Source: a virus
IMG/VR virus record: IMGVR_UViG_3300042300_000380
Coordinates: 1 to 49,858 of that record
Length of the DNA: 49,858 bases
Strand: one strand, 5' to 3'
Within the stretch, counting starts at the first letter, position 1. Every line of letters begins with the position of its first letter. Under the pieces are notes generated by a model, which saw only the letters and a program-made list of their open reading frames with translations, was not told where the DNA came from and made no database searches. Positions 3,207 to 48,091 of this stretch are shown here, one piece after another. The position numbers and the translations under genes are program-made.

Positions 3207-3215
3207 TGTACGGTT

Positions 3216-7708: not shown

Positions 7709-7720
7709 TTAATATCCTTA

Positions 7721-7748
7721 AATTAAAAAAGTCACGGTTTCGTGACTT
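7721..7748 (-). terminator. intrinsic terminator separating small-gene operon from replication operon
   Basis: On the minus strand AAGTCACG, loop AAAC and CGTGACTT form a perfect eight-pair stem followed by TTTTAATTT. It lies after the stop of the gene ending at 7795. A promoter-like sequence just upstream would start transcription only about 10 nt before this hairpin. Confidence 0.85.
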
Positions 7749-7763
7749 TATTGAACATGCTAT

Positions 7764-7791
7764 ATTTTAACATATTCTTATAACCTGTCAA
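7764..7791 (-). promoter_or_regulatory. sigma70-like promoter before the replication operon
   Basis: TTGACA (perfect -35) at 7786-7791, 16 nt spacer, then TAAAAT at 7764-7769 with an extended TGT in front. The predicted start is near 7757, so the transcript meets the terminator hairpin almost at once. It may drive the metallophosphoesterase-to-polymerase operon through partial readthrough. Confidence 0.65.
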
Positions 7792-7794
7792 GCA

Positions 7795-8220: not shown

Positions 8221-8624
8221 TATAAATTTTCTCCTAATTCATGTGAATTTATTTCCGATTCGCTTACTTCTACAATATTAGACCTATTAAGTCCATATTT
8301 AGAAAATGAATCTGGGTTCACAATATGACGCTTTTTATTTTGCGATATTAAATACATTTTACCATCTGCAATGTTCTTGATCAAAGCGCCATCTCTAAAC
8401 CCTAATTTACCAGACTGTTTAATTAAAGATAAGGCAGACTCTGTAGCATTTACTGTAGTAAAAGACCAAGACTCCTCTGCTCTTTTAGATATCAACTTGT
8501 ATCTTTTTCCGTCTTTAATCCAGTAAGTACCCTTGTCTGTCTTAACAGCAATTCCTGAAGGGAAATCAGTCGGAGAGGTTATTAAGATGCTCTGAGTATT
8601 CTTCTTTTGCTTGATCTTTAGCAT
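8220..8624 (-). CDS. small protein with KxYxI/NGKKRH-type repeats
   Basis: The recognisable part is a tandem of short beta repeats: GTYWIKDGKRYKLI and GKMYLISQNKKRHIVNP. These resemble the aromatic 'visible surface' repeats of some bacterial envelope proteins and phage tail proteins, so attachment to a surface is possible. I chose ATG at 8624 (134 residues). The frame is open to GTG at 8699, but that would bury the N-terminus entirely in the coiled-coil gene. Even at 8624 it overlaps that gene by 59 nt in another frame. A frameshift fusion of the two is conceivable but unsupported. Confidence 0.6.
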   Translation of the reverse strand: MLKIKQKKNTQSILITSPTDFPSGIAVKTDKGTYWIKDGKRYKLISKRAEESWSFTTVNATESALSLIKQSGKLGFRDGALIKNIADGKMYLISQNKKRHIVNPDSFSKYGLNRSNIVEVSESEINSHELGENL

Positions 8625-8754
8625 TTTCCTTTTCCACAAGTTGTGTAATCTCTGCACGTAATATTGCAATTTGAGTTTCATAATTTGATACCAATTCACC
8701 TATTCTTTGTTGCAACGCTGTAATGACTAAACTTGCTTTATTCTCCTGGTTCAT
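8566..8754 (-). CDS. small coiled-coil protein
   Basis: A 62-residue protein begins MNQENKASLVITALQQRIGE and is predicted to be one long heptad-rich helix (ITALQQRIGELVSNYETQ, then AEITQLVEKENA). Such short helical proteins are common near phage tail-fibre genes and may trimerise or act as chaperones. It overlaps the preceding gene by 17 nt and the following by 59 nt. No specific function is claimed. Confidence 0.65.
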   Translation of the reverse strand: MNQENKASLVITALQQRIGELVSNYETQIAILRAEITQLVEKENAKDQAKEEYSEHLNNLSD

Positions 8755-8962
8755 TTGTTACCTTTTCTAATTCGCTTTGTAATGCTTGTTTTTTTGCAAA
8801 TGCATTTTCTAGCTGTAATTCTAAAGCATCTACTGAGTCTTGATTAATTGGAGTCACTGCAGACTCTTGAATAATTAACATATTTATATTAAAAATATTA
8901 TTTACAATGCTTTTTAAGTGCACATTAATAATATCAATTTTTTCTTGTTTTTCTAAATCCAT
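8738..8962 (-). CDS. small helical protein
   Basis: A 74-residue protein begins MDLEKQEKIDIINVHLK and ends in a helix of coiled-coil type, LQLENAFAKKQALQSELEKV. The ATG touches the stop of the zinc-binding gene (one-base overlap). It and the next gene form a pair of small coiled-coil proteins. I do not recognise a family. Confidence 0.65.
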   Translation of the reverse strand: MDLEKQEKIDIINVHLKSIVNNIFNINMLIIQESAVTPINQDSVDALELQLENAFAKKQALQSELEKVTNEPGE

Positions 8963-9237
8963 TAAATAACATCCTTAGTCTCTGTTACTGGTCCCCATTT
9001 TCCGAGAGGGCATCCAGCATGAGGAAGCTTTGCTTTTTCTGTCATAAAGCATCCACACTTTTTGCAAGTTTTTGTTGCTTTAATTAATGACGGACAATTT
9101 AAACAATGATTTTCATATCTATATTTAAATGTATCATCATCTACTCTTCCAATTTTTGGATTTAATAAATCCCAGGGTCTGACTTTATCCCCAGCATTTT
9201 TTTCTTTCCATATTTGAAAAGGTGTTTTTTGTGACAT
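8962..9237 (-). CDS. cysteine-rich zinc-binding small protein
   Basis: This 91-residue protein has six cysteines in a compact block: HCLNC (45, 48), CKKCGC (58, 61, 63) and GCPLGKW (76), with a conserved-looking GCFMTEKAKL between. This CKxCGCFM...CPxGKW pattern resembles small proteins found in cyanophages and other marine phages (possibly the DUF6171 type; recalled, not searched). It would bind one or two zinc ions. The N-terminus PFQIWKEKNAGDKVRPWDLL is typical of the same proteins. Its role is unknown. Confidence 0.75.
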   Translation of the reverse strand: MSQKTPFQIWKEKNAGDKVRPWDLLNPKIGRVDDDTFKYRYENHCLNCPSLIKATKTCKKCGCFMTEKAKLPHAGCPLGKWGPVTETKDVI

Positions 9238-9239
9238 TG

Positions 9240-9470
9240 CTATTCCGTTGGCTCTGTTATTTCTTCTGGCTTTGGACCAAATTCATTTGTTTCTGAATTA
9301 TAAGTAGATCCTACCTGAACAATTCCATCATCTGTAATTAATTGTCCAGTAACATTTTTAATAATTGGATTGCTTGTAAATATTGCACCTAATCTTTCAT
9401 CTGTGTGCAAAATATCTATTACTTCTCCGTCAATAATAAATGCTATTTTAACTGGTGGTAATTCTGGCAT
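9240..9470 (-). CDS. small phage protein, first gene of the small-gene operon
   Basis: A 76-residue protein begins MPELPPVKIAFIIDGEVIDI, followed by LHTDERLGAIFTSNP, and ends in an acidic proline-rich tail (PKPEEITEPTE). The IDGEV..VLHTDERLGA pattern resembles small proteins associated with phage tail or fibre clusters, but no activity is known to me. The strong ribosome site AAGGAGGAACT before the ATG and the promoter directly upstream indicate substantial expression. Confidence 0.7.
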   Translation of the reverse strand: MPELPPVKIAFIIDGEVIDILHTDERLGAIFTSNPIIKNVTGQLITDDGIVQVGSTYNSETNEFGPKPEEITEPTE

Positions 9471-9490
9471 AGTTCCTCCTTGTTTCTTAT

Positions 9491-9519
9491 ATTATACATA
9501 ATCTATGTATATTTGTCTA
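9491..9519 (-). promoter_or_regulatory. sigma70-like promoter for the small-gene operon 9470-7795
   Basis: TAGACA at 9514-9519, 17 nt spacer and TATAAT at 9491-9496 on the minus strand. It occupies the 55-nt gap after the cysteine-repeat protein gene. The same TAGACA-N17-TATAAT arrangement occurs before the oxygenase cluster. Confidence 0.75.
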
Positions 9520-9525
9520 CAGCGA

Positions 9526-12060: not shown

Positions 12061-14021
12061 TAGGCCCAGCTAATCCAGATATCTCCAACAACTCCTGTGG
12101 TAGGAGATGGTTCTGCTTGTGCAGTAGTTCTAGTTCCGTAGTACACGCCAAAACCTCTTTTTAACATGTTATTATTGTAAGGATCAGAAACAATCATTCT
12201 TTGTCTTGCAGCTGATCCGTACCCTGTGCTTGCTGGATACTCAGACCCATACTGAGTGATTGCCGTATTTGGTGCTCCGCTAGTTCCATCTGCATTTAGT
12301 GTTAGTCTACCTATTGCAGTTACATTATTTCCAAGAGTAGGAATATTATATATTTTTAAACCAGATGTACTTAATTCTATTTTTGAATCAAGATAAGTAC
12401 CAGCGCCTCCGCCTTCAATATCAGCAGGTAGTTGTCCTGAATATAATGTTATTACTCCAGTAGCATTTATAGATTCAATTTTTGTATTTGAATCTCCAAT
12501 TCTAAATCTTGTAGTATTCCATACATTGTCAGTGCTTCCTTCTACTAATGTAAAAGAAGATCCTGTAATTGTTGAGCCAGTTATATTTCCAGACATAGAT
12601 AAATGTGAGTCTCCAGTTCCAGGAGATGCTGTTAATGTAAATTTACCAGTTGGAGATCCGCCATTATAATGAGAGATGGAAGATGGGGTTAATCTAAAAT
12701 GATACCCAGAACTACTTCCTAAAAATATATTTGGATCTGTTCCGCTATTTATTTTTAAAGTTCCTGTAGAGTTTTGTAGGTAAGACTCTCCTAAATTCCA
12801 TCCACCAATATCTCCATATGTTGCTGTAATATATCCGCTATTAGATACACGGAATGGAGCGCTTAAATAGTTAGCATTTCCTAACCAGATTCCAGTTGCT
12901 GGCACAGCTTTAAATATTGTGTTGCCTGATCCTATTTCTAAATCTCCAGTAAATGTTCCAGATCCTTTTATTGCAAGTGTCCCAGTAGTTCCAGATGTTA
13001 AATATTCTAATAATTTTGTAGTTCCGTCTGTTCCATAGATAATAAATGGAGAGGAGCTTCCAGATATAACAACTCTTTGACCTCCGCTAACTCCTGCTGT
13101 AATTGAGTTATCTGCAGTTAATGTACCAGTACTTATTTCGCTAGCTGGTAATTTTAATACAGTAATTGGGTTACCGTCTGCAGAAACTGGTTGCCCATTT
13201 GCAACCCCATTAGCATTTATTGTATCTATTTTAATATAATACGGAACTCCATATTGAAGAAGTGTTCCTAGTGTTTTATCAATAATAGTTCCAACACCTA
13301 TTGAAACTTTATTTGATCCATTTGCAAAATTTAATGTGTGAACCCAGTTATCGTTACTTGGTGTAAAGTTAGATGCTGTTCCTATAAATACTTTTGCTCC
13401 AGCAAAACTACCTTTAGTAAAGTCTACTGGGTCGCCATTTGTATCTAAACTTTTACCGCTCCATTCAACAATAACAGAAGCTAGTCCTGCAGTTACTATT
13501 GGTGTGTCTGGATCTTCTGGAGATAAAACAATTTCTCCAACTGCTGGAACCAATATTGACCTTGGTAAACTTACTGCAGATCTACTTCCATAATTTGATA
13601 TAGCATATAATGCTACTGCATACTCTCCTGCTGGTGCTGCAATTGTTTGTGTGCCTGCAGCTTTAAAACTTCCTGCTGGCTTTGTTCCATCGAATGGAGA
13701 ACCATCAATATATATATCAATTCTATCTATATTTGTAATTGCTCTGCCAGCTGCATCATTTCCGTTCCAAGTTATTTTAATTAAACCTGGCTCTGCAGTT
13801 ACACTGCCAACTGGTAGGTCTGGAGTTCCTGGAAGAGTTTCTCCTGGAGTAGTTAAAACTTTTGATGCAGACCATAATCCAAATGTTCCATCTTTATATT
13901 TCCATCTAAGTTGAATTGGGTAGTTTGTATTTAATTCAAGATCTGTAATAGTTACGACAAAATAATTACCGTTTTCTACGGCAACTGAGGTGTCTTTTAA
14001 TAAATCTTGATATGCTGCCAT
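12060..14021 (-). CDS. tail fibre or minor tail protein with fibronectin-III-like domains
   Basis: A 653-residue protein whose first 300 residues look like two or three fibronectin type III domains (for example PIQLRWKYKDGTFGLWS and GLIKITWNGND). A middle segment reading SEISTGTLTADNSITAG leads into a beta-helical or fibre-like half rich in Gly, Ser and Thr (ATYGDIGGWNLGESYLQNST). The C-terminus ends with GVVGDIWISWA. It probably forms part of the tail tip or a receptor-binding fibre. It overlaps the next gene's start by one base, placing it within the tail operon. No enzymatic motif is visible. Confidence 0.75.
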   Translation of the reverse strand: MAAYQDLLKDTSVAVENGNYFVVTITDLELNTNYPIQLRWKYKDGTFGLWSASKVLTTPGETLPGTPDLPVGSVTAEPGLIKITWNGNDAAGRAITNIDRIDIYIDGSPFDGTKPAGSFKAAGTQTIAAPAGEYAVALYAISNYGSRSAVSLPRSILVPAVGEIVLSPEDPDTPIVTAGLASVIVEWSGKSLDTNGDPVDFTKGSFAGAKVFIGTASNFTPSNDNWVHTLNFANGSNKVSIGVGTIIDKTLGTLLQYGVPYYIKIDTINANGVANGQPVSADGNPITVLKLPASEISTGTLTADNSITAGVSGGQRVVISGSSSPFIIYGTDGTTKLLEYLTSGTTGTLAIKGSGTFTGDLEIGSGNTIFKAVPATGIWLGNANYLSAPFRVSNSGYITATYGDIGGWNLGESYLQNSTGTLKINSGTDPNIFLGSSSGYHFRLTPSSISHYNGGSPTGKFTLTASPGTGDSHLSMSGNITGSTITGSSFTLVEGSTDNVWNTTRFRIGDSNTKIESINATGVITLYSGQLPADIEGGGAGTYLDSKIELSTSGLKIYNIPTLGNNVTAIGRLTLNADGTSGAPNTAITQYGSEYPASTGYGSAARQRMIVSDPYNNNMLKRGFGVYYGTRTTAQAEPSPTTGVVGDIWISWA

Positions 14022-36512: not shown

Positions 36513-38387
36513 TTATGAGTTTTGTATCACAAGCCAGTCATTATTATATAGGTTTACTGAATTTTCGGACAAGGTTATGGAAGATCCGCTGGTTTGATAG
36601 GACTGCCTAGAGGTATATAAATCATAATGATTAATAATCTTATTATAATCTAATGAATTTTGGTAAAATGACATATATTGATATAGAGCCTTTACCGATC
36701 CATTAGATTTATGATTTATAGTTAATTCCCCTTCTACTGGCTCCGTTAAGTTAATGACTACATGATATAAATTATTATATTTAAATATATTAGAAATATT
36801 AGTTTCTGGGGTCGCATCCACACCATTTACGTATATAGAGTCAATATTATCTTTATTGACATTTCCTAGACTATCCCAATAATACCCAGTTTCTGTTGAA
36901 TCTTGTAAAATTAATCCGCTAAATTTAGGAAGTAGGTCTACCACTTCTGCTGGGTTTACGTCTATAGTTTCTGTATTTGGATTAATTTCAGCATTAATAA
37001 CATTGTTTTGAGATAAAGGAATGTTTACAATTTCTGCATCGGTTACTGGAAGCAGGAAAAATGGGGTATAAAAAAACTCAATGCTTTTTATTTTATTAGT
37101 TAAATTAATTTTAAATCCAGATTCGCTTGGCGATAATATCCCATTTCTTAAATCTCTAGATACAACTGAATATTTTTTTGATCCCAAATAGTATTCTAAA
37201 TTTTCAATTTTGGATAAATACCCTGATCCATTTTTTGAATACATAATTTGATTATTATAAAAGCTAATATTTAAATTATATAATTTTGGTAAATATTTAG
37301 ATATATCTTCAGAAGAGATTGTTATTCTTATATTTAAAAGTCTACTATCATTAAATTCTAAAGAATTATATTGTGGTATAGATTCTCCATTTGAACATAA
37401 AAAATAATTTATTCCGTCTGTGCTAGTTTCTACAGTAACTCCACTGTCTCCAAACCAATCTATTTTTGAAGAATTCATTGTTATTGCAGCTGGCAAAAAT
37501 ATAGTGTCTTCTAAAACAATACTTTTTTCTTCTGGGATTTCACTACTTTTTATTTGTATATATTGATTTGTTTGATCATAATAAAGATCTTCTGTTATTA
37601 ATTCTTGCCATGATCTATTAAATGGATATGAATATGAAAAAACTTTACTAATGTCTGTATCATAGAACTCAAAAATTTCTCCGTTGTCAGATTGTGATAT
37701 TTGTGCTGGACTGGTGTAACTATCATTTAAATAATGATCTAAAATTTTTGTACTTGGTAGCCCATATCTATATATTGCTACATCATCTATCAAAAAAGTA
37801 TCTTGTGTGTCAGATGTAGGGCCAGATGATATTAATACTTGAGTATTTGTAAATGGATTGCCTTCTATATTTTTACTAATACATAATATGCCGTCTATAT
37901 AGATATGAGCCTCTTTGACTAAATAAACACATACAATGTGAATTGATTTATTTACATATGGAAGATTATACTCTAAAGACTCTTGGTCTAATTTAAAAAT
38001 TATATTTTTATCTTTATAGAATATTCCAATATTTTTAGAAGCATCTCCAAGTATTTTTGTTATTTTATCCGTATATATTTTAGGATATATCCAGCATTCT
38101 AATGTAAAATCATTATCTCCGTAATAAACTGTGCCGAATCCTCCTGGGAAATTATTCTGGTAGTACCCGTTTATTATTGGAAAATTTATATTATTGTCTG
38201 AATTAACCTCTAAACAGTTTTGTCCGCCTAATGATAATGGTATCATTTTGGTTGATGTATCAAAAATTCCACTATATGATGCATCATTATTGCATCCAGA
38301 AAAATCTTTTAGCGTGCCATTTTGAGCACTATCAAGTGTCCAGAATCCTATTGGGTTATCTTTCATAACCATTAATTTATTAGACAT
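36513..38387 (-). CDS. LamG/concanavalin-like surface structural protein
   Basis: A 624-residue protein whose first 230 residues form a LamG-type jelly roll: NPIGFWTLDSAQNGTLKDFS, the FTLECWIYPKI strand, and LIDDVAIYRYGLPSTKI ending the fold. The second half is beta-rich (RSWQELITEDLYYDQTNQ). LamG domains bind sugars or other surface ligands. It lies between the oxygenase array and the portal gene with a promoter at its start. It is probably a capsid or tail surface protein and so also a possible oxygenase substrate. Confidence 0.8.
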   Translation of the reverse strand: MSNKLMVMKDNPIGFWTLDSAQNGTLKDFSGCNNDASYSGIFDTSTKMIPLSLGGQNCLEVNSDNNINFPIINGYYQNNFPGGFGTVYYGDNDFTLECWIYPKIYTDKITKILGDASKNIGIFYKDKNIIFKLDQESLEYNLPYVNKSIHIVCVYLVKEAHIYIDGILCISKNIEGNPFTNTQVLISSGPTSDTQDTFLIDDVAIYRYGLPSTKILDHYLNDSYTSPAQISQSDNGEIFEFYDTDISKVFSYSYPFNRSWQELITEDLYYDQTNQYIQIKSSEIPEEKSIVLEDTIFLPAAITMNSSKIDWFGDSGVTVETSTDGINYFLCSNGESIPQYNSLEFNDSRLLNIRITISSEDISKYLPKLYNLNISFYNNQIMYSKNGSGYLSKIENLEYYLGSKKYSVVSRDLRNGILSPSESGFKINLTNKIKSIEFFYTPFFLLPVTDAEIVNIPLSQNNVINAEINPNTETIDVNPAEVVDLLPKFSGLILQDSTETGYYWDSLGNVNKDNIDSIYVNGVDATPETNISNIFKYNNLYHVVINLTEPVEGELTINHKSNGSVKALYQYMSFYQNSLDYNKIINHYDLYTSRQSYQTSGSSITLSENSVNLYNNDWLVIQNS

Positions 38388-38393
38388 CTTTTA

Positions 38394-38423
38394 ATTATAC
38401 CCTAAATTTTAAAAAATTGTAAA
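38394..38423 (-). promoter_or_regulatory. strong sigma70-like promoter with leaderless start
   Basis: TTTACA, 18 nt, TATAAT at 38394-38399 on the minus strand. Only six bases (TAAAAG) separate the -10 from the ATG at 38387, so the transcript probably starts at or next to the ATG. No Shine-Dalgarno is present. Confidence 0.75.
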
Positions 38424-39026
38424 TTACCAAAATTTCTCTTTAAACCAAAAAAGAGGTATCATATATTTTAAACCAGATTTTGTTGGTTTTGGATCATGCA
38501 TATATGGCTGATAAGATGGAAAAATTACTAAGCTTCCAGCAGATGGCTTAATCTTAATTCCTTGATTTGGAAACTCTATTTCTCCACCCTCATAATCATC
38601 GTTTAAATAGAATACCATTGAAATTGATGGTTGCTTAATGTTATAAATATCTTCCGTATCTACGTGAGGACCCATGTATGCACTTGTATTATATTTTCTT
38701 ATTGTAAAATGGTCTGGCATGTACCCAGAATCTTGATTAGTTTTTTTACAATAATCCTCTACACAAAAATCTATTAAGTTTTTAAGAGTTTTTGCAATAA
38801 TAAAAGAACTTGATTCTTCATTACAATTATTTAATATATTTGTAAATGAAGCCTCTCTAAATTCTCCATATAGCACATTTGCATTACTAGCATACCATGG
38901 CTTCCAATTAGAAAAAATATTTGCATTTTCTTGTTCTACATCATTAATTAAATTAATAAAATGATTTAAATCATCAATTAAATTTTCATAATATACAACA
39001 TTATCACATAGTATTGTTGTTTTCAT
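38424..39026 (-). CDS. 2-oxoglutarate/Fe(II) oxygenase (prolyl hydroxylase type) 6
   Basis: A 200-residue protein, the last gene of the array. Iron ligands are H121 and D123 (GPHVDTED) and H177 (YMHDPK); K187 would bind the 2-oxoglutarate carboxylate. The central strand reads VFYLNDDYEGGEIEFP, the hallmark of viral P4H-like enzymes. It would hydroxylate a protein side chain or another substrate using O2 and 2-oxoglutarate in the cell cytoplasm. It overlaps the preceding oxygenase by 23 nt. Confidence 0.9.
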   Translation of the reverse strand: MKTTILCDNVVYYENLIDDLNHFINLINDVEQENANIFSNWKPWYASNANVLYGEFREASFTNILNNCNEESSSFIIAKTLKNLIDFCVEDYCKKTNQDSGYMPDHFTIRKYNTSAYMGPHVDTEDIYNIKQPSISMVFYLNDDYEGGEIEFPNQGIKIKPSAGSLVIFPSYQPYMHDPKPTKSGLKYMIPLFWFKEKFW

Positions 39027-39822
39027 TATTTTTCATTTTTTCTGAATACTTTATTTGTTTTCCATCTTCAAAATAAAGCATTGCTTCTGGCATTTCTCTT
39101 TTAATTCTTTCTTCTTCTATTTTAAGCCATTCTCTAGGTCCATAAATTTTTTGACTATTTAACCAAGATTGTGACCCGTCTGAAATATAGGTAATAAAGT
39201 TTCTTACAAAAAACTTTTCTCCTTTTTTAATTGTTTTTACTCCATGAAAATATGGTGGCACTGAAGGGAAGACTAAAATGTCTCCCGCTTTTGGCTTGTG
39301 TGAAACAAATTGTCCATCTATAAAAAATTCAATATCTCCACCATCATAGTCGTCATTAATGTATGTTGTGCATGTTAAAAAAAACTTTGAACCTGGCCAT
39401 TCAGCTTCAAATATTTTAAAATCTGTGTGATACTGCATTGCTAGATTATTTTCTAAAACATCTAAATCTTTTTTATATTTTGAAAATGAGGAAGACATTA
39501 ATTGCGCTCCCTCTGGCATAACAACATTATTGTTTTTTATATATTCATTTATTGCAATGTTATATGCTTCATAAACACTATCAGATAAAAGTTTTTCTTT
39601 ATCATACATTTCGCCATACTCTCTAGCTTCTGAATCTTCGTGTTTTTGTTGAGTATAGGTTCCAAAAACTGACCACTTATCCCATTTTCTTAAATAGTAT
39701 TTGCCATCAGATGTTTTTTCAGATTCTTTCATAGTTTGATATAAATCTTCTACATTTGGCAATAAATTTCTATATACCTCTATTTTTGGATAAATTACTA
39801 TTCTTTGATACTGGTTACTCAT
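39004..39822 (-). CDS. 2-oxoglutarate/Fe(II) oxygenase (prolyl hydroxylase type) 5
   Basis: A 272-residue enzyme with H132 and D134 (YHTDFKIFE), H193 (YFHGVK) and K203 as the predicted 2-oxoglutarate anchor. The core sheet contains CTTYINDDYDGGDIEFF. It has a long N-terminal helical part with aromatic residues (KWDKWSVFGTYTQQ) not shared in detail with its neighbours, so substrate choice may differ. ATG overlaps the previous stop as ATGA, with AAAAGGAG eight bases before it. Confidence 0.9.
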   Translation of the reverse strand: MSNQYQRIVIYPKIEVYRNLLPNVEDLYQTMKESEKTSDGKYYLRKWDKWSVFGTYTQQKHEDSEAREYGEMYDKEKLLSDSVYEAYNIAINEYIKNNNVVMPEGAQLMSSSFSKYKKDLDVLENNLAMQYHTDFKIFEAEWPGSKFFLTCTTYINDDYDGGDIEFFIDGQFVSHKPKAGDILVFPSVPPYFHGVKTIKKGEKFFVRNFITYISDGSQSWLNSQKIYGPREWLKIEEERIKREMPEAMLYFEDGKQIKYSEKMKNNENNNTM

Positions 39823-40544
39823 GCATTTTTCTCCTTTTCGTATTTACTCTTATATGTTGGAATTATTCCATTTTGTCTATCTTGTTCCCATTTTTTATAC
39901 ATTAAATCTTGTTCTGATCTTATTCCCTTTAGTTCCACTTCCCATTTAGCTTTTTCTTCATCTGTGTAGACTGCATCTGCATCGTCCCAAAATGATCCAA
40001 TAGTATATCTCTCTCCATTTTTAACTGTAGTTACTTCGTGCTCATTCTTATATCCACCTTTAAATATTGAAATCATTCCAGTTTTTGGTTTTATATTAAT
40101 TGGATAATGTTCAAAATTTAAATTTCCACCATCAAAATTATCATTTAAATATAAAAATATTGCATATTTACTTCTTTGAAATGCTGTAGGGTTACCGTGT
40201 TCATCAGAGTTATCGGAATGAAATCCTGCAAATGCTCCTTCTGTCCATTTTTGTGCATGATAACTAATTTCAGACAGCTTATTGTTAAAACAAATTTCTC
40301 CAGCATTTTTTATTTTTTCTTTAAGGCTGTGAAAATATTTTGGGTCAAAACCAAACGGAATTAAATTATTATCATATTCCCAAAAACCCATAGCATACGA
40401 TTCATAAAAAGAAATTTGATTCCATTTTATGTAATCATTCTGCACAGACATTTCTAAATAATCTATAATTCTTTTGCATTCGTCTTCATTTAAAAAGTTA
40501 TCTATTGTAAAAACATCGTCTTTATGTTGTTTTATATCATACAT
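39819..40544 (-). CDS. 2-oxoglutarate/Fe(II) oxygenase (prolyl hydroxylase type) 4
   Basis: A 241-residue enzyme (from ATG 40544). The iron ligands are in GFHSDNSDEHG (H112, D114 of the longer numbering) and EHEVTT (H172), with R182 as the 2-oxoglutarate anchor. The core strand reads FLYLNDNFDGGNLNFE. I chose the internal ATG because AAAGGA lies eight bases before it. ATG 40553 would place that ribosome site at the start codon. A C-terminal helical tail of about 50 residues (EEKAKWEVELKG) is extra. Confidence 0.9.
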   Translation of the reverse strand: MYDIKQHKDDVFTIDNFLNEDECKRIIDYLEMSVQNDYIKWNQISFYESYAMGFWEYDNNLIPFGFDPKYFHSLKEKIKNAGEICFNNKLSEISYHAQKWTEGAFAGFHSDNSDEHGNPTAFQRSKYAIFLYLNDNFDGGNLNFEHYPINIKPKTGMISIFKGGYKNEHEVTTVKNGERYTIGSFWDDADAVYTDEEKAKWEVELKGIRSEQDLMYKKWEQDRQNGIIPTYKSKYEKEKNA

Positions 40545-41256
40545 TATTGTCATCCTTTAATTTAGTTATGGTCCAAAACCAAGGAGATGTGTATCTACAT
40601 CCTTCTTTAACAACATTAACCCCGTGAATATAATTCATATCTCCAGGGAAAAAATATGCTGCTCTAGCTTTTGGTTTAAATGATATATTTTGTTTTGGAA
40701 AATGTAACTCCCCGCCTTCATAGTCATCATTTAAATAAAATATTGTTCCTAAATCGTACCATGGGAAGTCATTTTCTTTTCCTGCGTCTGGGCCCTCGTG
40801 TAACTCTTTATCTGCATGGGGGAATTGATATGTTCCTTTTGGCCAACGTACAATAGCTGGGTGGGTAGACATGGCCTCTACATTATAAAATGATTCAATA
40901 ACAGGTTTTAATCTATCTATAATATTTCTTAGCATTAGAACAACATCTTGATTTGCTTTCATTAAAGTATTAAGTGTGGCTACTCTATTTTCCCATACCC
41001 TATGATCATAAATTATTGTTCCATTTTCATTATAATGGGATTCTGTAACATCCCAAATTTTATTATTTTTAGCAAAATTTAATAAAAATTCTTGTTCTTC
41101 ATTTGTTAAAAAGTTTTCTATTTCTTGTATCATATCTGAAGATGATCCGAAATAGCCAGAAGGTGTTATTGATTGCCTTGCTGTTCTAATATACTTATTA
41201 TCGTTTATAGAATCAACATTTTGAATTATGTCTTTTCCTTTAGCGTTTTCAAACAT
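40537..41256 (-). CDS. 2-oxoglutarate/Fe(II) oxygenase (prolyl hydroxylase type) 3
   Basis: A 239-residue enzyme with H147 and D149 (FPHADKE), H211 (YIHGVN) and R221. The core strand is IFYLNDDYEGGELHFP. A 50-residue N-terminal extension (VDSINDNKYIRTARQS) precedes the fold. An excellent ribosome site GGAGGCACAT precedes the ATG. It is the first of four consecutive oxygenases and follows the DUF6065-like pair. Confidence 0.9.
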   Translation of the reverse strand: MFENAKGKDIIQNVDSINDNKYIRTARQSITPSGYFGSSSDMIQEIENFLTNEEQEFLLNFAKNNKIWDVTESHYNENGTIIYDHRVWENRVATLNTLMKANQDVVLMLRNIIDRLKPVIESFYNVEAMSTHPAIVRWPKGTYQFPHADKELHEGPDAGKENDFPWYDLGTIFYLNDDYEGGELHFPKQNISFKPKARAAYFFPGDMNYIHGVNVVKEGCRYTSPWFWTITKLKDDNNV

Positions 41257-41265
41257 ATGTGCCTC

Positions 41266-41985
41266 CTATTTATATTCCTTTGGTACCCAAATATTTTTTT
41301 TATAAATTCCTCCGCCTTTTACTCTAAAATTTTTAGCAGTCTTAACGTGTTTTTTTACCATTTCTTTTTTTTCATGAAGGACTGGATCCATCGACCAATC
41401 CTCTCTTTTAAATGGAATTACTTGTGCATACGGAGTTCCTTTTGGAATTAACCCGACAAAATCATTTTTTAAAAAAAATGGAATAAGGCCAGATATAGTA
41501 TACATATCACTATCTATAATACCATTAGTTGTTAAAAATGGTAAATCAAATCTATTAAGGGGATTTAAAACTAATAAGCTATATCCTTTGGGGGTCTCCA
41601 TAGCCCAATTTGGCCACCAATGAAAATGAGTTTCTCTATATCCACTTGGTACCACAAACTCTGGCATTTTTTCTCTTCTTGCACAAAACTCTTCATATCC
41701 TTTTGGCGTTTCTACGTATATCTCACCTTTATATTCGTAAAAAGCTAAATCACATGGAGTTTTTAAAAGATACCCTAAAGAAAATGAATCTAGTAACGCT
41801 GGGCAAGACTTAAATCCAAGTCCTCTTTCTCCAAAATTATCAGTTACATAAGATCCATCATCGTTTTTCCAATATTTACTTGCTTGGGAAAACCAATTGG
41901 GAATGCTTAATTTTGCTGGTACTGGCAAAAAGTCTTTTGAGTCTTTGTTATATGGCCTTGAAGAATGAAAAATAATTTTATTCAT
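41266..41985 (-). CDS. protein related to DUF6065 (unknown function)
   Basis: A 239-residue protein (ATG 41985; ATG 42000 is an in-frame alternative). It contains FKSCPALLDSFSLGYLLKTP, ETPKGYSLLVLNPLNRFDLP and FVGLIPKGTPYAQVIPFKRE. These resemble the pattern of DUF6065-type phage and bacterial proteins, which I believe adopt a cupin-like sheet. No HxD iron site is present, so it is not one of the oxygenases. Its place inside the array suggests work on the same substrate. The family relation is recalled, not tested. Confidence 0.65.
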   Translation of the reverse strand: MNKIIFHSSRPYNKDSKDFLPVPAKLSIPNWFSQASKYWKNDDGSYVTDNFGERGLGFKSCPALLDSFSLGYLLKTPCDLAFYEYKGEIYVETPKGYEEFCARREKMPEFVVPSGYRETHFHWWPNWAMETPKGYSLLVLNPLNRFDLPFLTTNGIIDSDMYTISGLIPFFLKNDFVGLIPKGTPYAQVIPFKREDWSMDPVLHEKKEMVKKHVKTAKNFRVKGGGIYKKNIWVPKEYK

Positions 41986-42682
41986 TTTTATTATTAACAT
42001 AAAGTCTTATTGCTTTTACTTCATGCTCTCCTATTTTTTGACCTTTATAGTTTACTGCATCTCTGTAAAAATTAGTCCACTTACCGCTATCTGTTTTTTC
42101 TTTAACAATTTTAACGTGCTCTTCTTCTTTTAAAACTACATTATTTTTTATATTTTTATAATTGTCAATTTCAATTATAGAGTTTTGTAAATATGATAAA
42201 GATATTGGAACAATTGATATAAATGGTTGATTAGCTTTTATAGTAATTTTTGTAAAAGGTTTAGTAATTCTTAATGCACAGGGAAACTCTCCTTTAAAAA
42301 ATGATGTACTTATAATTGTAGTAAATGCTTGTGCCCCATCTATAAACATATTTGGAACTGGCATTTGTAACAAACTAACATCTTTATCTGTTTCAAATAC
42401 TATTCCAGTTTTAAAACTTATTGTTGCATTAGCTCTTTCTGTATAGCAGTATTCTTCGCCTTCTAATATTTTAACATGATTTCCAGATGTGTCTGATATT
42501 CCGTCCCATACAAAAGAAATATCTTTTGGAAATGAAAGGCCCCACCCTAAGCCATTTGCTAATGTTACTGGAAAACACTTATATGCATGACCATCTACTG
42601 TATTGTCCATCCAGTCTCTTTTAATATTTATTTGAGAAATATTTGCAGAGTTATTATTTTTATAGGCTGTAACTTTATACAC
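41978..42682 (-). CDS. DUF6065-like protein (unknown function)
   Basis: A 234-residue protein starting at GTG, which shares a base with the stop of the preceding oxygenase (TAGTG). It contains KRDWMDNTVDGHAYKCFPVT, LANGLGWGLSFPKDISFVWD and NMFIDGAQAFTTIISTSFF, in the order I recall for DUF6065 proteins (RDWMD...aYrClPl..AN..GW). No enzyme activity is known. It is coupled to oxygenase 2, showing the operon is one unit. Confidence 0.75.
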   Translation of the reverse strand: MYKVTAYKNNNSANISQINIKRDWMDNTVDGHAYKCFPVTLANGLGWGLSFPKDISFVWDGISDTSGNHVKILEGEEYCYTERANATISFKTGIVFETDKDVSLLQMPVPNMFIDGAQAFTTIISTSFFKGEFPCALRITKPFTKITIKANQPFISIVPISLSYLQNSIIEIDNYKNIKNNVVLKEEEHVKIVKEKTDSGKWTNFYRDAVNYKGQKIGEHEVKAIRLYVNNKNE

Positions 42683-43377
42683 TATGCATAATTTTCTGTA
42701 TATTTTTTTTCTATTTCTCTATATTCTGGAGTATGTGGTGCTTCTAGATAGTCTAACATAGTTACTATAGAATACTTAACACCTTTTGTGACTGGCATAG
42801 CTGCGTGAGAATATATATAAGATGAAGGAAATAGGTATAGATCGCCAGCCTTTGGTTTAATTTTTAAATTAAATTTATCAAAAAATAACTCTCCGCCTTC
42901 ATAATCGTCATTTATATATCCGACTGATGAGAGCACACAGATATAAGAATATCCGTGATCAGAATGAACTTGGAAATGTTGATCTTCTCCGTATTTAACA
43001 AAATTAAAGGATTCCCAATAATTTAAAGGAGCAAGCCCAAACATTTTGCTATAGTCTTTAACTGGATCTATCTGTGCTACGTATGAATCTTCCCAAATTT
43101 TTTCTAAAGCATATTCAGTTTCTTTTTTATTTTCTGGGGGGACGCTTTCTCCGCCTAGCATCAAATATCCATTAGGATTACTTTTTATTTTAAAATCGGC
43201 ACAATCTCTATATCTTTTATCTTCTAGATTATATCCTGTTTTTGCAGTTTTCCATTTATATGGGTTGTTTTCTTTTGATAATTCATTTTCTAATCTTGCA
43301 ACTAAATTCATTGACTCTGTAAAAACATTTCTATAGACCATAATTCCTGGTGCTAAGTATTCTGCATTTTCTAACAT
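42682..43377 (-). CDS. 2-oxoglutarate/Fe(II) oxygenase (prolyl hydroxylase type) 2
   Basis: A 231-residue enzyme with H138 and D140 (FQVHSDHGYS), H191 (IYSHAAMP) and K201. Core strand VGYINDDYEGGELFFD. It is a clear paralog of the gene before it: both read NYWESFNFVKY before the first iron ligand, SDHG after it and KPKAG..YLFPSS..YSH near the second. It starts directly after the upstream stop (TAA-ATG). Confidence 0.92.
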   Translation of the reverse strand: MLENAEYLAPGIMVYRNVFTESMNLVARLENELSKENNPYKWKTAKTGYNLEDKRYRDCADFKIKSNPNGYLMLGGESVPPENKKETEYALEKIWEDSYVAQIDPVKDYSKMFGLAPLNYWESFNFVKYGEDQHFQVHSDHGYSYICVLSSVGYINDDYEGGELFFDKFNLKIKPKAGDLYLFPSSYIYSHAAMPVTKGVKYSIVTMLDYLEAPHTPEYREIEKKYTENYA

Positions 43378-43995
43378 TTATACTCCTTTATGATGCTTAT
43401 CGTTATAATCAAACATTGTTACTATCGAATATTTTGTACCAGATTTTATTGGTAGCGATTTATGAGAATATATAAAAGAAGATGGGAATAAGTATAATTG
43501 CCCAGCTTTTGGTTTAATGTATATGTTTAATTTTGGAAAATATAATTCGCCACCATCATAATTATCATTTAAATAACCTACTCCAGAAACTGTACAAACA
43601 TATGCGTCGCCGTGATCTGAGTGCTCTTCAAAATGATGACCCTCTGTATATTTAACAAAATTAAATGATTCCCAATAATTTAATTTAATATTATACATAC
43701 TTGAATAGTCTTCTAAACATTCCTTTTGAGCATTATAAGAGTCCTGCCAAATAGATTGTAATTCTAGACTACTTTTATTTTTTATAATAGAAAAATTATT
43801 GGATTTTGCAATTTTAAAATCTAAACAATTTCTATATTCTGGAATTTTTTTCTTCCATCCTACCATTGCTTCTTTCCAGGAATATATTCCGTTGCTTTGT
43901 TTTATTGTACTCTCTACTCTTTCAATTAAATTAAGAGAATCTGGAAATACGTTTTCATACAGCCAAATACCATATCCTACTTCTATTTTTTGCAA
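43378..43995 (-). CDS. 2-oxoglutarate/Fe(II) oxygenase (prolyl hydroxylase type) 1
   Basis: A 205-residue enzyme, first gene of the array, starting at TTG 43995. Iron ligands H125 and D127 (FEEHSDHGDA) and H178 (IYSHKSLP), with K188 for 2-oxoglutarate. Core strand VGYLNDNYDGGELYFP. The TTG start is chosen because it aligns with the start of its paralog (VGYGIWLYENVF versus APGIMVYRNVF) and because no ATG lies nearby. A promoter with TAGACA-N17-TATAAT precedes it. Confidence 0.92.
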   Translation of the reverse strand: MQKIEVGYGIWLYENVFPDSLNLIERVESTIKQSNGIYSWKEAMVGWKKKIPEYRNCLDFKIAKSNNFSIIKNKSSLELQSIWQDSYNAQKECLEDYSSMYNIKLNYWESFNFVKYTEGHHFEEHSDHGDAYVCTVSGVGYLNDNYDGGELYFPKLNIYIKPKAGQLYLFPSSFIYSHKSLPIKSGTKYSIVTMFDYNDKHHKGV

Positions 43996-44021
43996 AATAA
44001 ATTCTTTCTACTAGTTTATTT

Positions 44022-44050
44022 ATTATAGCAAAATAATCTAAAAATGTCTA
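44022..44050 (-). promoter_or_regulatory. promoter of the oxygenase array
   Basis: TAGACA, 17 nt, TATAAT at 44022-44027 with extended TGC on the minus strand. It lies three bases after the stop of the PPG-repeat Hint protein gene, so the array can be expressed apart from the fibre genes. Confidence 0.8.
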
Positions 44051-44052
44051 GG

Positions 44053-44544
44053 TTATTTATTATGCGTTAATATGCCATTGGCATAAATTAAATCATATGG
44101 TTCTGCGTTGAAGGTATGAACAGTACATTCTTCGGTAATTACCTCTAAAGATATAATTTCTTCTGAAATAATATTACCGTTCGAATCATGTTTAGATAAT
44201 ATGTCTCCAACCTGAATTGATCCAGCCAAAATAAAACTATTTTGTCCGTTTCTAGTAATAAACATTGGATGCTCTGCTGTAAACCTAGAAGAAGGATCAT
44301 TATTAATAATAATTGTTTCTTCTGCTAGAGAAGTATATTTATTAATAACTTCTGTTTTTACCAGCTCTCCAAATGTTGCTGTTGGACTTGACCAAAATAA
44401 TGATGAATAAGCAGCTTCATCTGCTGGCAGTTCTTGAATATCTACTGCCCATATCCAGTCACCTTCTTGAACATCTTTTGCTGATTTATACTCAATAGAA
44501 TCATTTTCACCAACAACTGTTACTGGCGTGTCATCATGTAAGCA
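44053..44544 (-). other. Hint (hedgehog/intein) domain
   Basis: It starts at the catalytic-type Cys of SKC-LHDDTPV and ends in ILTHN plus one Lys. The TxxH-like FTAEHP and the terminal His-Asn are the usual self-processing residues. The +1 residue is Lys rather than Ser, Thr or Cys, which argues for cleavage or ligation to another nucleophile rather than normal splicing. Confidence 0.8.
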
Positions 44545-45414
44545 TTTGCTAAAGTATGGTGGGCCAAAGAATCTTGGAGGTGCAAAGAATCCTGGAGGTG
44601 CAAAGAATCCTGGAGGACTAAAGAATCCTGGAGGACTAAAGAATCCTGGAGGTGCAAAGAATCCTGGAGGTGCAAAGAATCCTGGAGGTGCAAAGAATCC
44701 TGGAGGTGCAAAGAATCCTGGAGGTGCAAAGAATCCTGGAGGTGCAAAGAATCCTGGAGGACTAAAGAATCCTGGAGGACTAAAGAATCCTGGAGGTGCA
44801 AAGAATGACGGTGGAGAAAAGAAAGTAGTTACTGAGTTCGTGGAAGCACCAGTAGATGTTCCATTAGCATTAATTGCATAAACGGTATAACTTTGTGTCT
44901 GCCCACCAGTTTCGTCAATATTACGTGATGTGACTGTAATATTTTCATATGATGGCCCATCACTTGATACAACGGTATATGATGAAATTGCTTTACCGCC
45001 AGTTTCTGGGGCAGTCCATGTAACATCATCTCTGTTTGCTACAGAAGAAGATACTGACGGAGAAACTGGTGCCTGCGGTACTGTAGTTACCAATATAGAT
45101 GAAGATGGGTCTGAAGATACAGAGTTTCCGTATGAATTAGTTCCATAAACTGTAAATGTATAACTTGTATTTGATGCTAGTCCAGTCATTGTTAATGGAG
45201 AAGACGACCCACTAACTGTCAATCCTGTAGGACTTGAAGTTACTGTAAAAGAAGATGCTTCTGGTGATCCTGCTGGCAATTCAAAAGAAATAATAGCGGA
45301 TCCATTATTATATGCTCTTCCCGTTCCTACATCTGAAACAGAATTAATTATTGGTTTTTGCGGCTCTAAGAAATCGTTTGTCGCTTGTGATTTTCTACCA
45401 GATCTTTTGCTCAT
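44053..45414 (-). CDS. surface protein with fibronectin domains, PPG repeats and C-terminal Hint domain
   Basis: A 453-residue protein. Residues about 20-195 are two fibronectin-III-like domains (SSFTVTSSPTGLTVSG and AISSYTVVSSDGPSYENITV). Residues 198-287 are fifteen hexapeptides of the form FF[AS]PPG, twelve of them exact. From Cys291 begins a 163-residue Hint domain: C-LHDDTPVTV at its start, the block-B-like FTAEHPMFI, HTFNAEPYDLIYANG, and final HN just before the last Lys. Such domains cleave or transfer the protein at the first Cys. It lies between the fibre genes and the oxygenases. Hydroxylation of the PPG array is a hypothesis. Confidence 0.88.
   Translation of the reverse strand: MSKRSGRKSQATNDFLEPQKPIINSVSDVGTGRAYNNGSAIISFELPAGSPEASSFTVTSSPTGLTVSGSSSPLTMTGLASNTSYTFTVYGTNSYGNSVSSDPSSSILVTTVPQAPVSPSVSSSVANRDDVTWTAPETGGKAISSYTVVSSDGPSYENITVTSRNIDETGGQTQSYTVYAINANGTSTGASTNSVTTFFSPPSFFAPPGFFSPPGFFSPPGFFAPPGFFAPPGFFAPPGFFAPPGFFAPPGFFAPPGFFSPPGFFSPPGFFAPPGFFAPPRFFGPPYFSKCLHDDTPVTVVGENDSIEYKSAKDVQEGDWIWAVDIQELPADEAAYSSLFWSSPTATFGELVKTEVINKYTSLAEETIIINNDPSSRFTAEHPMFITRNGQNSFILAGSIQVGDILSKHDSNGNIISEEIISLEVITEECTVHTFNAEPYDLIYANGILTHNK
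44554..44823 (-). repeat. fifteen 18-nt repeats encoding FF[AS]PPG
   Basis: Perfect or near-perfect 18-nt tandem units; units 2-13 all encode FFAPPG or FFSPPG, with the serine codon restricted to two pairs of units. The ends degenerate (PPS, PPR, PPY). Such a simple array can change copy number by slippage. Confidence 0.95.
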
Positions 45415-45427
45415 TTATAATATCTCC

Positions 45428-48091
45428 TTATGCCTTAAGATCTCCGTATACTACCCAAGAGTTGGTTGCTCTCTTGAATAATGTACATGATGACCATTGA
45501 GTACGTAATTTTAATCCAGGAGTAGCATTTACAGTTACCCCAGTATCTCCTGCAATTGTAATTAAGCCAGTATTTGTACCAAGTATATCTAGAGTTGTTC
45601 CAATTGGATAAGCAACTGCTGAGTTAGTTGGGATTGTTATTGTTACTGGGCTTGTAGAATCTACCTCTATTAATGAGTCTCTTTCAGATAGTTCAGATAA
45701 TGTGTAGTTTGCAGTTTTTGAAATAATTGGAGTTCTTGAAGGAACGCCTTCTTTTGTTTGGGTACCATCTGAAAATGCTACTCCAGAAGATGCTGTTATT
45801 ACTCCTGAGAATGTTGGTGCATTTTCTACTGCAATTGTTGCACCATCCTTTGTAATGTTTGTGCCAGCAATTACTGCCTCAGAAGCATTAAACTGTACGT
45901 AGCTAATATTTGTAGTTCCGATTGTAATTGTTCCTGTTGTACTAACAAGGAAGCCTTTAGAACCATTTGATGAGCCAGATGTTACGAATACGAAGTCTCC
46001 AGTTGAAACTTCTCCCGCAGGACTATTATCGCTGTCTGCTGCACGAGTAATTTGCCAAGGATTTGAACCATCTCCTACAGCGGTAATTGTGTAAATACCA
46101 TTTTCTTTAGCATCAGTTTGTGCACGAAGAAGAATTCTATCTCCTACAGCAACTGCTGCTCCGTCGATAGTTCCTATAGATCCATTTGTTGCTTTTGTTA
46201 ATGTTGCTCCCACTCCAGAAGTACCATTGTTATATGTTCCAGCAAGGTTTCCTGCAGTTGCTGCAATTACTGGTTGATGAAAGTTAATTCCAGCTGCAAG
46301 TCCATCAACATACTGTTTAGTTACTGCGTGGAGATCTGACGTAGGTGCACCTGAAAGTGTTAGTGCTCCTGTCATTGTTCCACCAGCAAGTGCTAGTTTA
46401 GCGTCTAAAGCTGTTTGTGTAGCAGTTGATACTGGTTTGTTGGCGTCAGATGTATTATCAACATTTCCTAATCCAACCATTGTTGCTGTAATTCCTGTTG
46501 CTGTTGTTGTTACTGAAAGCGTAGGTATTGTTACGGTACCAGTAAATGTTGGTCCTGCTATATTAGACTTTAAATTGTCTGCGTCGTCTACATATGTCTT
46601 TGTAGCAAGAGCAGATGTGTCTGCAATACCGTGTACAGATGTAGTTGCAGAATTGTGATTGGAAACTGCTGTTCCTAGATTTGATGCCGTGGTGATTGCT
46701 TCTTGAGTTACAGCATTGTCTGCATATGTTTTTGTAGCAAGAGCAGATGTGTCTGCAATACCGTGAATATTTGTAGTATCTGATTCGTGGGTTGAAACAG
46801 CGCTATCTGCATATGTTTTTGTAGCAAGAGCAGATGTGTCTGCAATACCGTGAATATTTGTAGTATCTGATTCGTGGGTTGAAACAGCGCTATCTGCATA
46901 TGTTTTTGTTGCCAATAAAGATGTATCTGCAATACCATGAATATTAGTTGTATCAGATTCGTGTGTAGATAAGTCAGTTGATGACGCCTTACTATTTAAT
47001 TGTGTTTGTATAGAAGATGTAACGCCGTCTACATAATTAAGTTCTGTTGTAGATAATGTTGCACCGTAAAGTATATTTAACTCTGTAGCGCTTGCTGTTA
47101 AAGGCACATCCTCATTAATTTTAGGGGAATTTAAAGTTTTGTTTGTAACGGTTTGTGTTCCATCTGTTGTAAGAAGCTTAGATGTGTCTGCAATACCATG
47201 AATATTTGTAGTATCTGATTCGTGGGTTTGAACAGCTCCAGTAGTAAAGCTTTCTAGCGTACTTTGTAATGAATCTAAATTATCTAGAATTGCTAATTCT
47301 TTTGAATTTGCTGCTCCATAATTAGCTACCCATTTATCATTTACTTCATCCCATTGAATAAATGCTGGTAGTGAAGATCCTCGTCTTACAGAGAATGCAG
47401 CACTAAGAGTCGGAGCTCCAGTAGATACATTTGAATTTAAAATAATTTCATTATCTTCTACAAGAAGTTCTGCAGTATTTAATGTTGTTGTATCTCCAGA
47501 AACTGTCAAATTTCCAGGAACTACTAAATCTCCAGAACTTGTAAATACTGCTACTGTTCCTGTAGCATTTGGAAATGTAATTGTTTGATCTTCTGTAGGA
47601 TTTGTTACTGTAAGGGTTGTTTCATATGCGTCTGCAGATGATCCCTCTAAAATAATGCTTGATTTTGGAACCAATAAGTTTCCATCGACATCTAACTTTG
47701 CTGGTCCGCCTGCGTTACCAACATCTGCTAGTAATACATAATCTGCTGCTGCTGCGTTGTCTAATCCAGTTATTTGATCATCGACATAAGATTTAAGTGC
47801 AACAACTGATGAGTCAATATTAAGAGAAATTGTATTTGTGCCATCATTGTAAGATTTTGTAAGACCTGCTCCCATTGAAAGTGCTGAGTCGATTGCATCT
47901 TGTGCAATTTCTGTAATTCCTGGTGCATCTGATGCAATGTATGCAAGGCTAGTCCATGCTGTGTTGCCAGTTCCAACTTTAATTTTTCTGGTGTCTGTTT
48001 CAACACCCATTTCACCTGCGGCTAATGTAGGATTTGCTGAGGTCCATTCTGATGCTGTTCCTCGTCTTACTTGAATTCTTACTGTTGACAT
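45428..48091 (-). CDS. tail fibre protein with Mtd-like N-terminus and HESDTTNIHG repeats
   Basis: An 887-residue fibre. The N-terminus (MSTVRIQVRRGTASEWTSAN, AAGEMGVETDTRKIKVG) is the Mtd_N-type repeat that begins many phage receptor-binding fibres. The middle contains four copies of HESDTTNIHGIADTS plus one diverged copy, within nearly identical 87-nt units, and the module ELNYVDGVTSSIQTQLN shared with the next fibre. The C-terminal region reads GAATVAVGDRILLRAQTD-like, then a beta domain ending with TQWSSCTLFKRATNSWVVYG. It probably forms trimeric fibres on the tail or head. Ribosome site AAGGGGTAATAAAT precedes the ATG. Confidence 0.85.
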   Translation of the reverse strand: MSTVRIQVRRGTASEWTSANPTLAAGEMGVETDTRKIKVGTGNTAWTSLAYIASDAPGITEIAQDAIDSALSMGAGLTKSYNDGTNTISLNIDSSVVALKSYVDDQITGLDNAAAADYVLLADVGNAGGPAKLDVDGNLLVPKSSIILEGSSADAYETTLTVTNPTEDQTITFPNATGTVAVFTSSGDLVVPGNLTVSGDTTTLNTAELLVEDNEIILNSNVSTGAPTLSAAFSVRRGSSLPAFIQWDEVNDKWVANYGAANSKELAILDNLDSLQSTLESFTTGAVQTHESDTTNIHGIADTSKLLTTDGTQTVTNKTLNSPKINEDVPLTASATELNILYGATLSTTELNYVDGVTSSIQTQLNSKASSTDLSTHESDTTNIHGIADTSLLATKTYADSAVSTHESDTTNIHGIADTSALATKTYADSAVSTHESDTTNIHGIADTSALATKTYADNAVTQEAITTASNLGTAVSNHNSATTSVHGIADTSALATKTYVDDADNLKSNIAGPTFTGTVTIPTLSVTTTATGITATMVGLGNVDNTSDANKPVSTATQTALDAKLALAGGTMTGALTLSGAPTSDLHAVTKQYVDGLAAGINFHQPVIAATAGNLAGTYNNGTSGVGATLTKATNGSIGTIDGAAVAVGDRILLRAQTDAKENGIYTITAVGDGSNPWQITRAADSDNSPAGEVSTGDFVFVTSGSSNGSKGFLVSTTGTITIGTTNISYVQFNASEAVIAGTNITKDGATIAVENAPTFSGVITASSGVAFSDGTQTKEGVPSRTPIISKTANYTLSELSERDSLIEVDSTSPVTITIPTNSAVAYPIGTTLDILGTNTGLITIAGDTGVTVNATPGLKLRTQWSSCTLFKRATNSWVVYGDLKA
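46719..46979 (-). repeat. three 87-nt repeats in the tail fibre gene
   Basis: Copies beginning at 46719 and 46806 appear identical over 87 nt. A third from 46893 differs mainly at silent sites. Each encodes a 29-residue unit with HESDTTNIHGIADTS. Such repeats allow fibre length change by recombination. Confidence 0.9.

Follow-up and report, generated by a model that had tools for sequence, protein, structure and literature searches.

Genetic linkage between sets of 2-oxoglutarate/Fe(II) oxygenases and an FFxPPx repeat protein in uncultured phages

The window analyzed here is the whole virus record IMGVR_UViG_3300042300_000380 of IMG/VR, a stretch of 49,858 bases, and our subject is a run of genes in it that encodes six 2-oxoglutarate/Fe(II) (2OG-Fe(II)) oxygenases, together with a neighbouring gene for a protein (P) that carries a hexapeptide repeat, FF[ASG]PPx. 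Positions 38424-43995 are filled by eight open reading frames (ORFs), all on the minus strand and overlapping or closely spaced. Gene P, which lies immediately upstream of the first oxygenase gene, was missed in a first-pass annotation of the sequence. The features of the locus are as follows; oxygenase slots are numbered S1 to S6, and the solved proteins named are prolyl 4-hydroxylases (P4H) and prolyl 3-hydroxylase 1.

44053-45414, minus strand: repeat protein P, 453 amino acids (aa), the proposed substrate; an ORF with fn3 (2.7e-8), the FF[ASG]PPx repeat, 12 PPG and a Hint/intein-like C-terminus
44551-44823, minus strand: FF[ASG]PPx hexapeptide repeat of P, from direct reading of the sequence and the unit composition in relatives
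44056-44544, minus strand: Hint/bacterial intein-like domain of P, Cys291 to the terminal HNK (phmmer to 2lwy, E 2.4e-4; start read from the sequence)
44022-44050, minus strand: promoter-like site between P and S1 (11/12 matches with TG; kept in close relatives)
43378-43995, minus strand: S1, 2OG-Fe(II) oxygenase, TTG start (PF13640, 1.2e-11; best solved relative bacterial P4H, 1.3e-6)
42682-43377, minus strand: S2, 2OG-Fe(II) oxygenase (PF13640, 2.3e-12; bacterial P4H, 2.3e-7)
41978-42682, minus strand: DUF6065 protein with a predicted dUTPase-like fold (PF19541, 3e-28; model with a predicted local distance difference test score, pLDDT, of 93.4; Foldseek, VIA-align)
41266-42000, minus strand: phrog_7084 protein, distant DUF6065 relative with a predicted dUTPase/dCTP deaminase-like fold (phrog_7084, 3.4e-30; model pLDDT 90.6; Foldseek)
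40537-41256, minus strand: S3, 2OG-Fe(II) oxygenase (PF13640, 1.7e-6; bacterial P4H, 0.0014)
39819-40553, minus strand: S4, 2OG-Fe(II) oxygenase (PF13640, 1.1e-10; prolyl 3-hydroxylase 1, 7.8e-6)
39004-39822, minus strand: S5, 2OG-Fe(II) oxygenase (PF13640, 6.6e-7; sole solved match prolyl 3-hydroxylase 1, 0.14, not significant)
38424-39026, minus strand: S6, 2OG-Fe(II) oxygenase, the most divergent slot (PF13640, 1.1e-11; P4H, 0.016, weak)

All six oxygenase ORFs exceeded the curated Pfam cut-off for PF13640 (2OG-FeII_Oxy_3), with E values of 2.3e-12 to 1.7e-6, and a profile search of the whole record returned the same six and no further one in the window. The first-pass annotation had described six separate genes with full active sites, and the alignment agreed with this: the HxD...H iron triad and the basic 2OG-binding residue (K/R) were kept in every sequence. 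The invariant columns included H125, D127, H178, and G186 (numbering of the first aligned sequence), and the basic residue at column 188 was K, K, R, R, K, and K in row order; thus, the previously named residues H125/D127/H178/K188 are correct for 43378-43995. S1 and S2 shared 51% identity, and the remaining four oxygenases were 24-34% identical to S1. The closest solved relatives were bacterial P4H for S1 and S2 and prolyl 3-hydroxylase 1 for S4. The ratio of nonsynonymous to synonymous substitution rates (dN/dS, method NG86) ranged from 0.047 to 0.132 across the six genes in comparison with the related locus L008 (loci from the database searches are designated by L and a number). Larger ratios were obtained with distant relatives, namely 0.37 for S6 (L016), and 0.81 for S5 and 0.62 for S6 (L011); the S5 pair is probably not orthologous, because slot 5 is missing from L011. 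The six oxygenases are under purifying selection.

Relatives of the locus were collected by searching IMG/VR with S2 (best 80 of 169 loci) and with DUF6065 (79 loci), and after removal of 21 contig repeats and pieces of the window, 128 loci and the window were analyzed, with each orthologue assigned to the window slot that BLAST matched best. The gene order S1-S2-DUF6065-phrog_7084-S3-S4/S5-S6 recurred among the relatives, the commonest slot patterns being 123546 (24 loci), 123456 (14), and 12346 (14); the median identity of S6 in relatives was 39%. This conserved order and the dN/dS values ruled out chance or decaying ORFs, and the earlier statement that none of the genes had decayed was confirmed. 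Sequence flanking the set at both ends was available for 66 loci, the window among them; five oxygenases were counted in 19 of these, six in 37, seven in 7, eight in 2, and nine in 1. Related uncultured phages therefore share a conserved oxygenase set, in most cases with five or six members. The view of the first-pass annotation that six such genes are exceptional was not borne out by these counts; for comparison, cyanophages carry 0 to 5 such genes per genome (PMC3037559; this and the other articles cited by PMC number were available as extracts).

To characterize the hexapeptide of P, 147 distinct ORFs of the relatives were used, which together supplied 1,920 units. The units were anchored on PP, so that positions 4 and 5 were fixed by the choice of unit; Phe occupied position 1 in 93% and position 2 in 99% of them. 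Position 3 was mostly A, S, or G, with Gly in 295/1920, and position 6 was G in 868/1920 (45%) and otherwise S, A, R, L, V, or others. The Pro codons varied, and it is therefore the peptide that is kept and not the DNA. The repeat periodicity also produced long overlapping ORFs in the window at 44528-44881 (plus strand) and 44520-44801 (minus strand, other frame), which were not counted as genes. The search sets for both directions described below contained 207 repeat ORFs, 175 of them with at least 40 residues ahead of the repeat. Comparison of these pre-repeat parts by BLAST with single linkage gave groups of 162 (158 to 892 aa) and 12 (102 to 217 aa) and one fragment, and no BLAST link joined the two groups outside the repeat. 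The repeat was also found at the end of tail-like proteins of 785 to 892 aa; a count of at least three unrelated protein contexts was abandoned, since BLAST joined these proteins to the fn3 group, leaving the two groups and the fragment. A cellular origin of the repeat was considered and rejected: the pattern gave 11 stretches in genome contigs, none of the 11 with an oxygenase, and the printed ORFs resembled chance reading of low-complexity sequence. No named phage with the repeat came to light: neither DUF6065 nor the repeat protein gave a tblastn match in the phage collection, where the low-complexity filter may hide the repeat. Four of the repeat strings, looked for in the open-licence literature, were not found there.

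The repeat and the oxygenases were genetically linked in both directions. In the forward direction, a repeat ORF was present upstream of the first oxygenase in 78/78 loci with at least 3.5 kb of upstream sequence (window included), which correspond to 37 after merging those sharing at least 10% of 21-mers. The upstream coding-strand ORFs of these loci contained 7 to 29 FxPP, whereas the ten top values for minus-strand ORFs were all 1, and the gap between the repeat ORF and the first oxygenase exceeded 2 kb in two loci (L138 and L139). In the reverse direction, IMG/VR was scanned with a DNA pattern for FFxPPxFFxPPxFFxPP, in which no oxygenase was used; at least 120 stretches were found, and 119 loci were analyzed, 57 of them with at least 4 kb downstream. 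Among these 57 loci, an oxygenase was present in 55, DUF6065 in 54, and the phrog_7084 type in 27; L243 had an oxygenase and no DUF6065. Over the whole reverse set, an oxygenase was found in 99/119 loci, the nearest at a median distance of 613 bases and closer than 2 kb in 95 of the 99, and clustering of these nearest oxygenases gave 62 groups at 90% identity, 34 at 70%, and 10 at 50%. An oxygenase occurred in the stretch in 141/155 loci of the first repeat-ORF group and in 11/12 of the second, where the layout was repeat protein, opposite-strand oxygenase, oxygenase, and DUF6065.

We propose a dedicated phage protein-modification module in which the oxygenases act on the FFxPPx repeat of the neighbouring phage protein, a reading whose chances we judge to be evenly balanced. 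In it, a number of prolyl-hydroxylase-like 2OG-Fe(II) oxygenases that are not redundant with one another, partnered by DUF6065 proteins of the dUTPase fold, would modify the FF[ASG]PPx repeat of a protein that is probably a virion fibre or adhesin of a tailed phage. Since the closest solved relatives are P4H and prolyl 3-hydroxylase (P3H), we propose hydroxylation of the repeat prolines: the two prolines would most likely become 4- and/or 3-hydroxyproline, Phe or the variable residue might also be modified, and different enzymes may take different repeat positions. Hydroxylation could turn a hydrophobic repeat into a stiff, hydrated stalk, and the Hint domain, where present, may subsequently cleave or ligate the chain. 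We infer the enzyme chemistry and the choice of the repeat as substrate, as well as which residues are modified, any order in which the enzymes act, a location in the virion, and what DUF6065 and Hint do. The first-pass annotation had suggested a modification system working on a repeated substrate, and its interpretation is partly supported: a repetitive candidate (44053-45414) adjoins the oxygenases and co-occurs with them in both directions, while its role as substrate is a putative one.

Two known systems offer a comparison. Collagen is modified by prolyl 4-hydroxylase and prolyl 3-hydroxylase; the repeat resembles it in its Pro-Pro-Gly stretches and in the P4H- and P3H-type enzymes. However, its unit is six residues long and contains FF, Gly stands at position 6 in less than half of the units, as given above, and the hexapeptide FF[ASG]PPx does not place Gly at every third residue. 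Because of the six-residue FF unit and a position 6 in which Gly is not required, the repeat is not collagen, and a collagen reading of the PPG stretches was ruled out. The algal virus PBCV-1 encodes a prolyl 4-hydroxylase (Eriksson et al. 1999). This enzyme reportedly acts on proline-rich peptides. The window resembles it in having virus-encoded P4H-like enzymes with proline-rich repeats as likely substrates; PBCV-1, however, has a single enzyme, whereas the window module has several. To our knowledge, PBCV-1 has no dedicated repeat gene next to its P4H gene and no DUF6065.

Several observations weigh against the proposed module. Two of the 57 repeat loci had no oxygenase in the stretch read (L229, in which a second repeat ORF was interrupted by the stretch end, and L246), and the tail-like repeat ORFs of L208, L213, and L216, which are outside the 57, lay about 10 kb from the nearest oxygenase; L216 is on the same contig as L043, which carries the cassette. 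Shared descent was only partly broken, as the loci are related, some are on the same contig, and 162/175 repeat ORFs fell into one single-linkage group; because of such shared contigs and of some overlap between the reverse and forward loci, the two tests are not fully independent. The figures of the reverse scan contrast with those of a comparison set, 120 viral loci collected with a Gly-Pro-x pattern, in which an oxygenase was present in 10/120, DUF6065 in 2/120, and an ORF with at least three FxPP in 1/120; but this set was unmatched in habitat and G+C, and relatives served to train the profiles for the oxygenases and DUF6065, which makes the contrast indicative and not a measured background. 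The likeness to P4H and P3H was weak for S3 and S6 and not significant for S5. An extract of a chlorovirus review cites an analysis in which no hydroxyproline was found in PBCV-1 particles.

In cyanophage S-MbCM7 (L402, 5346-7676), two 2OG oxygenases directly follow short-tail-fibre genes and no FxPP repeat is present in the stretch read; therefore, the repeat does not explain phage oxygenases in general. In the two named or single-cell phage records, L401 and L402, the FFxPPx repeat was not found in the stretches read. The S-MbCM7 layout favors an alternative in which other virion proteins, or molecules on the host surface, are modified by the oxygenases, the repeat protein being a co-inherited neighbour in an adhesin locus. 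The window locus adjoins a tail-fibre-like gene, whose product would be a possible target (45428-48091, upstream of the gene for P; 887 aa, with several partial matches to PHROG tail proteins), and the relatives share descent. We consider this alternative unlikely, though the least so of the rivals, because the reverse scan by the repeat alone still gave an oxygenase in 55/57 loci, and the short repeat proteins of the second group also occur with oxygenases in a different gene layout.

Two loci with other layouts were observed in passing. L294, a viral contig, contains very large collagen-like ORFs at 5775-13773 (Gxx runs up to 88) together with two oxygenase-like ORFs at 2729-5736, and is perhaps a true collagen-like case. 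L378 (1341-3261), a locus of the comparison pattern, has three oxygenase ORFs and a DUF6065 match and no FxPP ORF over the threshold.

PiuC was also matched by S2 and S3 (1.7e-4 to 3.4e-3), a further point against the module and one in favor of a metabolic or regulatory role, in which the oxygenases consume 2-oxoglutarate or serve iron uptake and act on host metabolism. For cyanophage oxygenases, a role in 2OG/nitrogen metabolism or DNA repair was proposed (PMC3037559), and PiuC similarity was put forward for lagoon viruses (PMC13184970). However, bacterial P4H was the better match for both S2 and S3, and from neither proposal would one expect the linkage with a repeat protein, or conserved paralogues numbering five to nine; we regard this role as improbable. 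In pelagiphages, eight distinct oxygenases were reported, often with ferrochelatase and lying near but not adjacent (PMC9599517). The window oxygenases and those of cyanophages and pelagiphages belong to the same PHROG 61 family with several members per genome, but the pairing with ferrochelatase and the non-adjacent arrangement distinguish the pelagiphage genes from the window operon. Other accounts place viral prolyl 4-hydroxylase, whose use by viruses “remains cryptic”, among the abundant auxiliary genes (PMC9301287), find it “less clear” what relevance viral 2OG oxygenases have (PMC13184970), note that phage oxygenases resemble human EGLN3 in structure (PMC12774648), or list oxygenases as auxiliary or DNA-repair genes (PMC10611076, PMC11288001, PMC5628999, PMC6359870). 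The extracts of these accounts name no repeat substrate, and no description of a repeat-oxygenase-DUF6065 module was found in the extracts of open-licence literature. Aquatic phages often carry 2OG-Fe(II) oxygenases, whose use is unexplained; the linked repeat protein suggests what the enzymes act on and makes part of the question directly testable, at least for this phage branch.

The two genes between S2 and S3 had both been called DUF6065-like, which holds for 41978-42682 (99.3 bits against PF19541, curated cut-off 26.6); 41266-42000 had no Pfam match and is only a distant relative of the phrog_7084 type, a profile that 41978-42682 also matched (2e-6). Both structural models resemble proteins of the dUTPase/dCTP deaminase superfamily: the Foldseek rows listed for DUF6065 were dUTPases, with a VIA Z score that reached 10.8 across 117 residues (root mean square deviation 4.6), and the match of the phrog_7084-type model to the dUTPase fold was weaker (E 5.7e-4). 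However, identity in the listed matches of both models was about 8-19%. DUF6065 thereby gains a predicted fold and a genetic context, although the name appeared in no paper of the open-licence literature searched. In what we take to be catalytic motif 3 of dUTPases, with its Asp and Tyr, 41266-42000 retains a similar GIIDSD stretch, whereas DUF6065 (consensus STSFF.GE) reads STSFFKGE at this place, in a register set by eye; DUF6065 thus seems to be without the motif-3 Asp and Tyr.

This fold would suit an alternative in which the oxygenases and the dUTPase-fold proteins make or protect modified bases, as would the GIIDSD stretch and the position of phrog_7084 relatives (about 28-31% identical) beside ribonucleotide reductase in the haloarchaeal viruses HRTV-22 (L399, 6001-6654) and HF2 (L400, 6001-6657). 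No oxygenase was found in the 12.7 kb read at these relatives, and the phrog_7084 family is therefore not tied to oxygenases. Such nucleic acid or nucleotide modification seems very improbable, given that in the Pfam search of the window ORFs, Tet_JBP and 2OG-FeII_Oxy_2 gave matches far under the cut-off only, that STSFFKGE seems to stand in place of the presumed motif residues in DUF6065, and that DUF6065 is tied to the repeat in 54/57 loci. As a speculation, DUF6065 may be a trimeric carrier.

The C-terminus of P matches bacterial intein-like/Hint domains (2lwy), while the Pfam Intein_splicing match (0.0012, 19.1 bits) was under the cut-off of 35.8. Unlike 2lwy-type domains, P ends at HNK without a C-terminal flank, and the domain is missing from some repeat proteins, e.g., in L012 and L015. 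The Hint-like end, together with a weak match of S4 to NCBIfam YhhC, a peptide-maturing oxygenase (24.5 bits, cut-off 150), could point to peptide maturation, in which the repeat would be oxidized in a precursor, as in ribosomally synthesized and post-translationally modified peptides, and the Hint domain would free a secreted or diffusible product. The repeat proteins without Hint and the tail-like 785 to 892 aa proteins that also end in the repeat argue against it, and we give this alternative little credence. Returning to the module, a broader and doubtful generalization would be a new class of viral post-translational system, in which a portable FFxPPx tag, one to nine dedicated oxygenases, a DUF6065 dUTPase-fold carrier, and often Hint would form a self-contained unit, the different oxygenases placing distinct hydroxyl marks on a single hexapeptide (both prolines at C3 or C4, Phe, the variable residue) and so maturing phage fibres.

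The eight-gene run likely has a promoter of its own, as the first-pass annotation had suggested for 44022-44050. The site reads TAGACA, a spacer of 17, and TATAAT, with TG ahead of the second hexamer; region 37800-45700 contained four sites with 11/12 matches, and TG was present only in this one. The same region held 58 promoter-like sites in total against 45 ± 5.9 in shuffles. TAGACA...TATAAT stood in the equivalent gap of L007 and L011 with a different spacer sequence, and in that of L010 and L016 it differed by a single base; L001 is nearly identical to the window. Of 39 distinct gaps in the relatives, 17 contained a looser -10 pattern and 22 did not.

The remaining minus-strand genes of the window include replication genes at 2.5-5.7 kb, tail genes that include one for a tape measure of 2,380 aa, and genes for a head protein, head protease, and portal at 32-36 kb, after which the oxygenase region follows. 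The head protease shares about 46% identity with its counterpart in Streptomyces phages, e.g., Mildred21, and an actinobacterial host is therefore possible. Downstream of the operon and ahead of the portal gene, 36513-38387 encodes a Laminin_G_3 (concanavalin A-like) protein, with a promoter-like site (11/12 matches) in front of it at 38423-38394.

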